NCBI GenBank assembly: GCA_002791575.1
Contig: PFXI01000004.1
Coordinates: 1-32,163, forward strand
Length of the DNA stretch: 32,163 nt
Direction: 5' to 3'
Source of the DNA: Zetaproteobacteria bacterium CG_4_9_14_3_um_filter_54_145
GTDB taxonomy: Bacteria; Pseudomonadota; Zetaproteobacteria; Mariprofundales; Mariprofundaceae
The notes under the pieces: model-generated
Databases searched by the model: none
What the model was told of the DNA's origin: nothing
Seen by the model: only the letters and a program-made list of their open reading frames with translations
Program-made: the position numbers and the translations under genes
Shown: positions 10,945 through 14,653 of the stretch, piece after piece
Layout of the letters: every line of letters begins with the position of its first letter
Position numbering within the stretch: the first letter of the stretch is position 1

Positions 10945-13764
10945 TCAGCACCTGCGTATGACAATCAACTCTACAATATGATCCTGATGATCACGCCAGA
11001 CCTTGAGACTTTGCGGGTTCCCCATCGGATTGATCATGATCTCCAGTTGCCGCAGACACTGGAACTCATGGCGACGGGGAAACAGACGCATCACCATATT
11101 CGGCTTCATGGCACCGGCAACAATGGCGGAATCAATACGAAAACCGATCCAGATCAGATCCTGCTGCAACAGGCTGGCAAACAGCCCGGCAGCATCCATA
11201 TCCCTTTCGTACGACCGGCATGGCAACACATCCAGCGCCAGCGGTACGCCTTCACCGACATCGGAGCTCATCAGGCTGTCGAGCAGATAGCGTAGCGAGC
11301 GATGCATATCGTAGACCTGCGGCGTTGTGGAGGCATACATCAGATAGGATGTATGCGCCGCATAAATGCCGTAAAACTCCATCGGCACAACCACATTCAC
11401 ATCCATCTCTATGGGAAAGCGGTCCAGCTCATTCTGCAGCATGCGCGCCTGATTACGGGTGTCGACAATAGCAAACATCTCCGGCCTGCACGCCTCCTCC
11501 TCGGCCAGCGAAAAGGTGTGCGACAGCACCGAGGCCACCATGGCATGGGGCTTTTTCACCACATGCGCAGGCCTGGATACAACCACCTTGTCCGCCCGTT
11601 GCACATGCTCGCGCAGCGCCTCCATATCGGAAAAGTTCCAGCGCCTGATATCAACAGTCACCCGTTTCAGTGCGCCCTCCATCTCGCCAAGTCGCCGCTG
11701 CACATAATCGCTCATATCGACCTGCTCTTTGCGGCTCATATCATCGAGCAAGGTCACATGGATAACATCAAAGGAGTCCAGCAGGCGTTTGAGCATCAAC
11801 GGCAGTGCGCCAATCCAGCCGACCGCCAGCAGCTGCAGATCTCTCTTCTGTTGCAGTACGACAGGCATCGGCTCTTCTCCGCCAGCAGGCGCCCGCTCCA
11901 CCTCCCCCATCTGCAGGCAGTATTCGAACTCGCCGTAGAGGGTGGCATGATCCACGGCAATCCCCTGCACTGAAGTCACCTGCACCTCCGCCTGCAGAGA
12001 GGAGAGCGGGTGCACCTGTAAACCGGCATCCGCCACGGCCACCAGAATCACCCCCTGCTCAAAGCAGCGCAGCATCATCTCCCGGACGCTGATCGTATGT
12101 GTCCCGTCAACAAAAAACCATGTCCCGGACTGTCGGACAATGCGTCCGTCCCACTCCACAACATGCATGGCCGATTCATCCTCTCGCTCGGGAATCATCA
12201 AGCGTGAGAGCACCTGATCGACATCCTGATAGACCAGTACATTACGAATCAGATTGGCACGCATATCCGGCTCGGAGATCAGCACGGTCGGCTTGTTGTA
12301 GTAGCCCGCCTTATCCCAGCCGACCTGCAGCATATGGTTATAGGATTGCAGGCGCGGCTGCACCATGCCCATCACCGTATAGGAGACCGGTATATCCGGA
12401 TTCACCTGACGGATCGCCATCAGTGAAAACAGATTCTGCGACAGCTCTTCAGCCGCATTCAGCGTCTCATCGGTACAGACCAGCGCCTGTCTGGCCGAGC
12501 CCAGATTCACCCGCTGCATTGACTCGGCATCTTCCGTGTCACCCCAACGGAATGTGACCCAGCTCTCCAGCTCATCCGGCCGTTTTTTGGTCTCGCCGAG
12601 AAACACCAGCTTCAGCCTGGCGAAACGCTGATCGGAGAGTTGCTTCAACTTTTCAATAATAAACGGCGATGCGCTGTTCCAGCCTATCATCACCAGATGG
12701 TTGGCTATCATCAGTTTTTCATTGCGCAACTTGGCCATCAGACCGGAAATAATGCTCGAGCCGATACCGATGAAAAATGCCAGAATAAACATGCCCAGCA
12801 CCACGCTGAACACCGAAAACAGCGCCAGATTATCATCGCCAAGCGGATCACTCACCAGATTACCTGCCGCCATCAGCGTACGGAATGCGAACCAGATCTG
12901 TACAAACAGATTCTCATCCACCGCCGAGAGTACGCCATCCTGGGAGAAATCGAATCCGGACATGGTAAAGTGACCCACCACACCGCCGCTAATCGAGAGC
13001 ATGGCCAGCAGCAGTACCACCAGTATAATCTCCTGACTGTAATCACCTTCGCGGAATACCTTGCCCAGATTACGCAGGATCACCATCCATGGCCTGAACA
13101 GTCGTACCAGCCGGATAGCCCTGAGTGCATTGCCATATGGGATAGAGGTCAGTCCCGGCACCATGACAACCGTGGCCAGCAGATCAATGCCCCAGAACCC
13201 CCACTCCACCATGCGCTCCCGACGGGTTGAAAAGGTCATGTTCCTCAGCAGCACAAAACGGATCACCACCTCGACGGAAAAGTAGACGATAATCCCCCAC
13301 AACAGCTGCCCTTCAACAAAGAAAGAGAGCATCACCACCAGTGAGATAAACATGCCATAACCGGGTGAAAACATCAGGCTCTGCATATCGATATAGCGGA
13401 ACAGCCTCAGCGCCCTGAGCAGGTATAGCGCCCGCAGGAAGCGGGCAGCGGCACCCTCCTCGCCGAGCATCATCTGCAGATCGAATGCTGTCGCCAGCAG
13501 TGACAGCAGGGCCAGTGTGTCAAAAAACAGAAACAGCACGTCAAGTTTCAGGTTCAGCGAGGATTTATACGGATTGGTCTTGCGCTTGTAGCGCATCAGT
13601 GCCGCACGCAGTCCCAGCTCAGCCATAAACAGCAGGCCCAGCACCGCCGCAATAGCCTGACTCTGGGTGAATGAGAGCAGAATCAGCAGCAGCATCAACA
13701 GCCCATAGCGATGATGCGACATCACCCACTCGGCATAATAATAAAAGTTTGTTCTCTGGCCCAT
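10945..13764 (-). CDS. Channel-like protein: two voltage-sensor-like units, one pore, two RCK-like domains
   Basis: A 939-residue inner-membrane protein. Unit 1 (about 18-125) has four helices; the fourth carries R108, R111, R117, R120 and R123. Unit 2 (about 136-232) repeats the plan, with E165 and R169 in its second helix, D194 in its third and R215, R218, R221, R224 at perfect three-residue spacing in its fourth. A pore module follows: helix 245-266, re-entrant segment with AAGNLVSD at 299-306, helix 313-345. The filter resembles the A-x-x-GN filter of CASTOR/POLLUX channels, not the potassium TVGYG. The cytosolic part has two Rossmann/RCK-like segments starting at about 355 (HLVMIGWN) and 644 (QLLAVGW). 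The start ATG has GGGGGG four bases upstream. Ion selectivity and gating are inferred. No pore lies between the two sensor units. Confidence 0.8.
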   Translation of the reverse strand: MGQRTNFYYYAEWVMSHHRYGLLMLLLILLSFTQSQAIAAVLGLLFMAELGLRAALMRYKRKTNPYKSSLNLKLDVLFLFFDTLALLSLLATAFDLQMMLGEEGAAARFLRALYLLRALRLFRYIDMQSLMFSPGYGMFISLVVMLSFFVEGQLLWGIIVYFSVEVVIRFVLLRNMTFSTRRERMVEWGFWGIDLLATVVMVPGLTSIPYGNALRAIRLVRLFRPWMVILRNLGKVFREGDYSQEIILVVLLLAMLSISGGVVGHFTMSGFDFSQDGVLSAVDENLFVQIWFAFRTLMAAGNLVSDPLGDDNLALFSVFSVVLGMFILAFFIGIGSSIISGLMAKLRNEKLMIANHLVMIGWNSASPFIIEKLKQLSDQRFARLKLVFLGETKKRPDELESWVTFRWGDTEDAESMQRVNLGSARQALVCTDETLNAAEELSQNLFSLMAIRQVNPDIPVSYTVMGMVQPRLQSYNHMLQVGWDKAGYYNKPTVLISEPDMRANLIRNVLVYQDVDQVLSRLMIPEREDESAMHVVEWDGRIVRQSGTWFFVDGTHTISVREMMLRCFEQGVILVAVADAGLQVHPLSSLQAEVQVTSVQGIAVDHATLYGEFEYCLQMGEVERAPAGGEEPMPVVLQQKRDLQLLAVGWIGALPLMLKRLLDSFDVIHVTLLDDMSRKEQVDMSDYVQRRLGEMEGALKRVTVDIRRWNFSDMEALREHVQRADKVVVSRPAHVVKKPHAMVASVLSHTFSLAEEEACRPEMFAIVDTRNQARMLQNELDRFPIEMDVNVVVPMEFYGIYAAHTSYLMYASTTPQVYDMHRSLRYLLDSLMSSDVGEGVPLALDVLPCRSYERDMDAAGLFASLLQQDLIWIGFRIDSAIVAGAMKPNMVMRLFPRRHEFQCLRQLEIMINPMGNPQSLKVWRDHQDHIVELIVIRRC

Positions 13765-13837
13765 ATCGCCCCCCTGAGCAAACGCAGATCAGTTGAGCAA
13801 GTCCTGCGCCAAGCTGCCCGATTCAGCCGCGGCTGTT

Positions 13838-13866
13838 TTCACGCTGGCCCGATCATTGCTTATATT
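13838..13866 (+). promoter_or_regulatory. Candidate promoter of the lipoprotein gene
   Basis: TTCACG (13838-13843) and TATATT (13861-13866) are separated by 17 bases, 44 bases upstream of the lipoprotein start codon and in the divergent gap with the channel gene. The -35 box is a poor match. Confidence 0.25.
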
Positions 13867-13909
13867 AGACAGCACAGCTGTTACCACTACATCTGCAATG
13901 GAGTACCGT

Positions 13910-14653
13910 ATGAAACAACTGAATCAATGCTGCCGGGTGATACTGCCTGTATTGCTGCTTATGCTGGGCGGCTGCGTCACGGTGCAGGATGTCATGGAAT
14001 CCGACCCCTCCGGGCTGCTCTCGTCGCTTGCGGAAAAAACTGCAGCAACGCCGGCAGAGGTCATCAACAAGCGCATGCTGCATGCCGATCAGGCCAGTGA
14101 CCGGATAGGCGCCAGAAACAGCCTGATAGGTGAACTTATTAGCGATGCGGATCAGGTTTGCCATCATCGGCTTGCCCTACTCCCTCAGCAGATTGAAAAA
14201 TGGACACTGGCGATTCACCGGCGTGATAAACTGGCAATCCTGCTCAATGATGGCATCTCGCAAAGACCGCTGGACCACATCAACCCCGATCTGGCCATTG
14301 CGCTGCCCGAGCCGGGCCCTGACCCGAAACAGCAACTGGCCGATGCCATGGTCGCCATCATCACCGCACAGCGCGAGGCGATCCGCACCACGCTGACAGC
14401 ACGGGAAGAGCTGGATATCCATCGCTATCCGATCAAACAGGCTCTGCTGGATGTACGCACGTATCACCTCGCATGCTCTGCCGAGTTAGGCCTGAGCGGC
14501 GTGACCCATGCCTCTTCATCACAACGCATGACAGTCGAAGAGAAACAGATGAAAGTCGAATCCCTGATACAGCTGCGCCAGACCCTGATGGAACAGGGGC
14601 TCAGCACACGCACCATACAGAAACAGATCGATGCGGTGATTCTGGCCGATTAA
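13910..14653 (+). CDS. Lipoprotein of unknown function
   Basis: A 247-residue predicted lipoprotein. The signal peptide MKQLNQCCRVILPVLLLMLGGC ends in an L-G-G-C lipobox (C22), so the mature protein is lipid-anchored. The rest is soluble and mainly helical, with a region rich in Q and R (about 150-247, e.g. IITAQREAIRTTLTAREE) and no domain I can name. Start ATG 13910 has GGAG six bases upstream; the frame is open further 5' but those starts lack a ribosome site and would hide the signal peptide. It diverges from the channel gene. Confidence 0.75.
   Translation: MKQLNQCCRVILPVLLLMLGGCVTVQDVMESDPSGLLSSLAEKTAATPAEVINKRMLHADQASDRIGARNSLIGELISDADQVCHHRLALLPQQIEKWTLAIHRRDKLAILLNDGISQRPLDHINPDLAIALPEPGPDPKQQLADAMVAIITAQREAIRTTLTAREELDIHRYPIKQALLDVRTYHLACSAELGLSGVTHASSSQRMTVEEKQMKVESLIQLRQTLMEQGLSTRTIQKQIDAVILAD

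Follow-up and report, generated by a model that had tools for sequence, protein, structure and literature searches.

Sequence comparison and structural modelling show, at the level of predicted domains, that a gene in the 32,163-nucleotide stretch of DNA analysed here (the window) encodes a channel in which a CASTOR/POLLUX-like pore and a tandem-RCK gating ring follow a tandem-duplicated pair of voltage sensors, VSD1 and VSD2. The best overall explanation, to which we give slightly better than even credence, is that the protein belongs to a duplicated-sensor, CASTOR-like channel family of the Mariprofundales, in which paralogues B and C signal to motility and the window copy, paralogue A, differs from them.

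Results

Predicted architecture of the window channel

The open reading frame of paralogue A is exact, with an ATG start and 939 codons for amino acids (Table 1), and lies in a genome of 2.85 Mb in 124 contigs, which its relatives place in the Mariprofundus group. Five further genomes in the genus have orthologues at 70–82% identity, and Mariprofundus ferrooxydans PV-1 holds a copy 82% identical to the window channel. In an AlphaFold2 monomer model built from 50 family sequences (pLDDT 82.9, pTM 0.81), eight helices are placed ahead of the pore, at residues 18–30, 36–63, 70–93, and 97–124 for VSD1 and 134–147, 153–175, 181–200, and 211–239 for VSD2, followed by S5, the pore helix, and S6, and then by two alpha/beta RCK domains (Table 1). 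The least confident helix in the model is S4 of VSD1 (pLDDT 54–58). The eight helices and the gap of about 10 residues from one unit to the next were also seen in a model of the TM region only.

The first-pass annotation of the window had described two consecutive four-helix sensor units, about 10 residues apart and each ending in an arginine-spaced helix, ahead of a single pore with an AAGN filter and two RCK domains. The models bear out the helix count and the spacing, and homologues cover the two units end to end. Both S4 ladders were found, including R215/R218/R221/R224, the AAGN filter lies at residues 299–302, and the fold comparison with Slo1 and CASTOR agrees with two RCK domains.

Table 1. 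Features of the channel gene, with residue ranges and positions in the window.
Feature	Position	Strand	Basis
Whole gene, paralogue A: double-VSD, single-pore, double-RCK channel	10945..13764	-	ORF, orthologues
VSD1, residues 18-124	13393..13713	-	model helices; KCNQ2 VSD profile match; invariant F46, E49, R53, D82
VSD1 S4, R108/R111/(Y114)/R117/R120/R123	13396..13443	-	near-invariant in all 3 subfamilies
VSD2 including S4-S5 linker, residues 134-239	13048..13365	-	model; KvAP TM-profile match; hhalign homology to VSD1
VSD2 S4, R215/R218/R221/R224	13093..13122	-	conserved in A and B; two Arg in C
S5, residues 242-267	12964..13041	-	model
Putative EF-hand-type Ca2+ loop of periplasmic turret, residues 272-283, DFSQDGVLSAVD	12916..12951	-	motif
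Pore helix, residues 286-298	12871..12909	-	model
Selectivity filter AAGN, residues 299-302	12859..12870	-	B and C have D-P-G-N/T/A here
S6, residues 311-347	12724..12834	-	model
RCK1, about residues 355-620	11905..12702	-	Foldseek to Slo1 and LjCASTOR gating rings; weak Pfam Slo-like_RCK
RCK2, about residues 642-939	10948..11841	-	Foldseek; hhalign to bacterial CASTOR-like channel

Both units resemble voltage sensors

The charge-transfer centre of VSD1 comprises F46 and E49 of S2, within an F-x2-E-x3-R motif ending in R53, and D82 of S3, and that of VSD2 comprises F162 and E165 of S2, within the same motif ending in R169, and D194 of S3; the spacing of both motifs is that of F290-E293-R297 in Shaker. 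The S4 ladder of VSD1 consists of R108, R111, R117, R120, and R123, with Y114 filling the gap. Over 51 family members, F46, E49, R53, D82, R108, R111, Y114, R120, E165, R169, D194, R215, and R218 are invariant. Each unit thus has the features expected of a VSD, namely four helices, F-x2-E in S2, an Asp in S3, and Arg at three-residue steps in S4.

The first-pass annotation had called for each unit to be compared with known sensors. When a profile of the 51 TM regions was compared with solved structures, the KCNQ2 voltage sensor matched VSD1 at residues 38–123 (E 0.002) and the sensor and pore of KvAP matched residues 137–341 (E 0.008), both E-values being modest. These two matches fall on separate units, which makes each unit independently VSD-like. 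A search of solved structures with VSD1 by itself found KCNQ channels, that with VSD2 by itself gave no match at E 1, and a plain single-protein sequence search of the PDB gave no useful match. Foldseek comparison of the TM-only model listed Kv and KCNQ channels, none of which matched significantly over the whole length, as is to be expected if a single pore preceded by two VSDs is absent from all solved chains.

The VSD1 and VSD2 profiles aligned with each other at an hhalign probability of 97.6% (E 3.6e-12, score 69.9), whereas their scores against Kv-type sensors of other bacteria were only 28.2 and 24.0. The two units are therefore mutually closest relatives, and the simplest reading of these profile comparisons is that the pair arose by tandem duplication.

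It had been proposed in the first-pass annotation that the first sensor might be vestigial, which would suit its odd position with no pore behind it. However, in no subfamily is VSD1 less well conserved than VSD2, and the residues of its F/E/D centre and its S4 arginines hardly vary among A, B, and C, whereas it is VSD2 that degenerates. The S4 arginines of VSD2 are kept in A and B, with Lys replacing Arg at 224 in two members. For subfamily C, R221 is changed to V/I/L and R224 to N in 18 of 19 members, and F162 to L in 17 of 19, so that the S4 of VSD2 drops to two Arg while the key residues of VSD1 are retained. An eroded VSD2 beside an intact VSD1 amounts to an experiment of nature that speaks against VSD1 being vestigial, and this reading, which we consider extremely improbable, was rejected on conservation.

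VSD1 could instead be a voltage-immobile structural or docking domain, for example for the VSD2 of the neighbouring subunit, for lipid, or for a partner, with VSD2 alone gating the pore. Such a role would be consistent with the lack of a direct connection to the pore, the interruption of the Arg ladder by Y114, and the low model confidence of the VSD1 S4. Against it stand the near-invariance of the F46/E49/D82 triad and the five Arg in A, B, and C and the observation that C has lost R3 and R4 of VSD2 yet keeps VSD1, as expected of a working sensor. We therefore regard a docking role as rather unlikely and favour a VSD1 that works as a sensor.

Selectivity filter and gating ring

The filter segment of the window copy reads LMAAGN, with Ala at position 299. 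All six A members in the tree have this Ala, whereas all 47 non-A members have Asp, as does every member outside A whose filter can be read. The A+B profile aligned with a bacterial Castor_Poll_mid-bearing channel (hhalign probability 97.2%), the alignment spanning 507 columns and bringing together the two filters and both RCKs, in keeping with the CASTOR/POLLUX-like pore suggested in the first-pass annotation. Pfam Castor_Poll_mid recovers bacterial 2-TM channels with the filters TDPG and MDAG (L095–L097), and it had no match in the window channel's own genome nor in 33 family members, of which 10 showed a weak match to Pfam Slo-like_RCK. In Foldseek comparisons, Slo1 channels were the best whole-chain structural matches (E 1.7e-17), and the gating rings of LjCASTOR and MtDMI1 (6o7a/6o6j/7vm8) matched with target TM values of 0.69–0.73.

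An ordinary Kv or Slo (BK) K+ channel with an extra domain would explain why Slo1 gives the best whole-chain match and why KvAP aligns with VSD2 and the pore. This explanation is improbable, since a TVGYG-type K+ filter is absent from the window copy, whose relatives carry DPGN/DPGT/DPGA, the filter and the ring align with CASTOR-type proteins, and Pfam Ion_trans stays below its cut-off for the window channel.

The first-pass annotation had also envisaged a nucleotide bound by the RCK domains. This part found no support: the GxGxxG Rossmann motif is absent from both RCKs, which carry GWNSAS (361–366) and GWIGAL (649–654) instead, with the GW motifs at 361–362 and 649–650, and the nearest solved rings are those of LjCASTOR, MtDMI1, and Slo1. 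A nucleotide-binding (KTN) RCK was dismissed in view of the missing motif.

CASTOR is a Ca2+-regulated Ca2+ channel with the filter AD265S(A)GNHA, in which the Asp is essential, the D265N substitution abolishing current (PMC6697748). The presence of Ala in every A member and of Asp in B and C suggests that, of the three, the window copy is the least probable candidate for a plain Ca2+ channel, and paralogue A probably passes monovalent cations or alters B by joining it in mixed tetramers. A narrower proposal is that A is a non-conducting or modifying subunit, which would lower or change the Ca2+ permeation of B in mixed tetramers. The AAGN filter in six of six A members where others have DPGN, the loss of current in CASTOR D265N, and the B or B-like copies held by all six A-bearing genomes are consistent with this proposal. 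However, the A pore looks intact otherwise and, with an identity to B of 48%, so that about half of the residues differ, A may simply self-assemble with a different selectivity. We consider the modifying-subunit proposal possible, although not the expected outcome.

A putative Ca2+ loop in the periplasmic turret

A putative EF-hand-type Ca2+ loop, recognised by its motif, is conserved in the turret between S5 and the pore helix, which is periplasmic by topology. The EF-hand/dockerin-type motif was found in 46 of 53 members, in 27 of them strictly. The motif tested was D-x-[DNS]-x-[DNS]-G-x5-[DE], to which the window loop fits; an example of the loop in paralogue C is DINDDGDVNMAD. Shuffled turrets gave a mean of 0.18 motif matches, and strict matches outside the turret numbered 0 in 54,091 residues. 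The loop is absent in six related B-branch members and in one C member (L045).

Distribution and paralogues

A search of other genomes for the full-length architecture, the second check proposed in the first-pass annotation, was positive in 55 of 78 Mariprofundales (Zetaproteobacteria) genomes, which carry 1–4 double-VSD channels each by profile search; the carriers are a group of iron-oxidising marine bacteria. Among 398 genomes sampled across the phylum, the profile search found no counterpart outside the Mariprofundales. The sole match from outside the order was an ordinary 290-residue frame (E 4e-6), compared with about 1e-93 for near-complete members, and the gap between them was empty. 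When 84,980 species genomes were scanned from a motif seed, only Mariprofundus-group genomes turned up, and no plasmid homologues of the sensor region were found. More than 90 homologues span both sensor units end to end, which excludes chance or misassembly as the origin of the architecture; a misassembly or fusion artefact was thereby ruled out.

The tree resolves three paralogues. Paralogue A has six members (support 99/100) and the filter AAGN, paralogue B has the filter DPGN, and paralogue C, which is parted from A and B by a very long branch, has a length of 1000–1700 aa and the filter DPGT/A/V/S/N. The window genome has one copy of each, A in the window and B and C on contig 24. PV-1 has A and B, and a search for CheB in it found none. 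One family member (G212:C105:891-1941) lies in two frames, matching the profile at 3–188 and 190–350, and is broken within VSD2; this split may reflect a frameshift or a sequencing error in an incomplete MAG.

Gene neighbourhoods and the link to flagella

Paralogue A lies 108 bases from leuS, likewise in PV-1, and no motility genes adjoin it. A divergent gene (13793-14653, +) for an unknown protein, which starts some 30 bases away from the channel gene, is also found beside the PV-1 copy and has no Pfam match. The window also holds a chemoreceptor gene with HAMP and MCP-signalling domains (461-2161, -), about 9 kb from paralogue A.

For paralogue B, the locus in the window genome (contig 24, about 37.7–40.5 kb; L120/L121) belongs to the flagellar basal-body cluster and lies between a motE-like gene and fliK, in the order flgB-flgC-fliF-fliG-fliH-fliI-fliJ?-motE-like-B-fliK-flgD-flgE, and flagellar neighbours were found at 20 of 29 B loci.

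For paralogue C, the locus in the window genome (L119:2923-6573) contains genes for PAS and MCP proteins, the C channel, and then cheY, cheA, cheW, cheY, cheB, and cheR. The C channel gene begins 9 bases past the MCP gene and has a 4-base overlap with cheY, suggesting translational coupling. An MCP gene lies directly upstream at 23 of 25 C loci and cheA lies downstream at 22 of 25, most of the exceptions being contig ends.

The C-terminus of paralogue C (e.g. the last about 125 aa of L003) is a long acidic low-complexity tether with EVAEAEVAET repeats, at whose end is a conserved helical domain, in some cases duplicated, with a near-invariant D-R-V-x-Q. A CheZ-like CheY phosphatase was considered for this domain; CheZ is absent in all 41 Mariprofundales genomes checked, whereas hhalign comparison with CheZ gave a probability below 1% and Pfam gave nothing meaningful. 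With the absence of CheZ and the D-R-V-x-Q in favour and hhalign and Pfam against, this assignment was rejected and serves only as a lead.

Among 39 high-quality genomes, 26 of the 29 with FliG carried the channel, as against 0 of the 10 lacking FliG (Fisher 4.5e-7, shared ancestry uncorrected). Over all 78 genomes, the channel/FliG table was 50/5/3/20 (Fisher 3.7e-11, shared ancestry uncorrected); the five channel-only genomes are MAGs with 70–86% completeness, and three flagellated genomes are without the channel.

Discussion

The component parts of the window channel are already known; what sets it apart is their VSD-VSD-pore order. CASTOR, POLLUX, and DMI1, plant nuclear Ca2+ channels, and bacterial relatives such as L097 share with the window channel an x-D/A-x-G-N-type filter, two tandem RCKs, and the gating-ring fold (PMC6697748). 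L097 also has the GW motif in both RCKs, as in the window family, but is a 2-TM pore module without a VSD, whereas the window family has two VSDs before the pore. In pore and ring, the window channel would work like CASTOR/POLLUX, although we do not file it as a member of that group because the family gives no Castor_Poll_mid match and the window copy has no filter Asp. The Slo/BK channels share with it a voltage sensor, one pore, and a tandem RCK ring, and hence voltage and ligand input, at about 12% identity in the Foldseek alignment. Unlike the window channel, they have a K+ filter and, for each pore, a single VSD (plus S0). The Kv channels resemble it in VSD1 (KCNQ2) and in VSD2 plus pore (KvAP), but have one VSD per pore and a K+ filter and lack a comparable tandem RCK. 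Several VSDs per chain also occur in two-pore channels and four-domain Cav/Nav channels, but there a pore follows every VSD, whereas the two VSDs of the window channel share one. All voltage-gated channels known to us have one sensor per pore module, and we know of no VSD-VSD-pore case. Two sensors feeding one pore in this order were not described in the papers found by our literature search, and the Zetaproteobacteria genome papers that were searched for channel terms make no mention of double-VSD channels.

We infer that the family most likely consists of voltage- and ligand-gated cation channels, probably for Ca2+, that serve motility. Four subunits around one pore would bring together eight voltage sensors. 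VSD2 would pull the pore through the S4-S5 linker, and VSD1, whose only route to the pore would be through VSD2 or contacts with the adjacent subunit, would work in series through the 10-residue linker that leads into S1 of VSD2, where it would contribute gating charge or bias it. Such a serial arrangement could make the voltage dependence steeper or displace it, and in C, with two Arg in VSD2, VSD1 would sense and VSD2 relay. The cytoplasmic RCK ring would add gating by an ion, by homology Ca2+ or another cation and most likely Ca2+, and the turret loop may sense or funnel periplasmic Ca2+. B and C, with an Asp like D265 of CASTOR, would probably pass Ca2+ upon a change in the membrane potential, which would be driven by respiration and hence by the O2/Fe(II) supply, and the resulting cation signal, probably Ca2+, would serve as an input to the flagellar motor or the CheA/CheY array. 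The C channel may communicate with CheY via its tethered C-terminal domain.

A more far-reaching version is an excitability module for swimming, in which Ca2+-permeable channels with eight sensors per pore and both periplasmic and cytoplasmic Ca2+ sensing would be co-produced, as B and C, with the basal body and the chemoreceptor-CheA-CheY array, so that the membrane potential would steer motility directly; we hold this version to be doubtful. The overall explanation that we prefer remains the duplicated-sensor, CASTOR-like family with signalling to motility by B and C and a differing A. Against this explanation weigh the missing filter Asp of the window copy and its place outside a motility operon, the lack of a Castor_Poll_mid match, the three flagellated genomes without the channel, the seven members without the turret loop, and the low model confidence of the VSD1 S4.

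Since nature provides a family in which the sensors are duplicated, and in which VSD2 is eroded in one branch, the coupling of two sensors in series to one gate can be put to the test. The flagellar and chemotaxis placement of B and C hints at electrical control of swimming, and this operon context offers a genetic handle on the long-standing question of whether voltage-gated channels, probably for Ca2+, act in bacterial chemotaxis.
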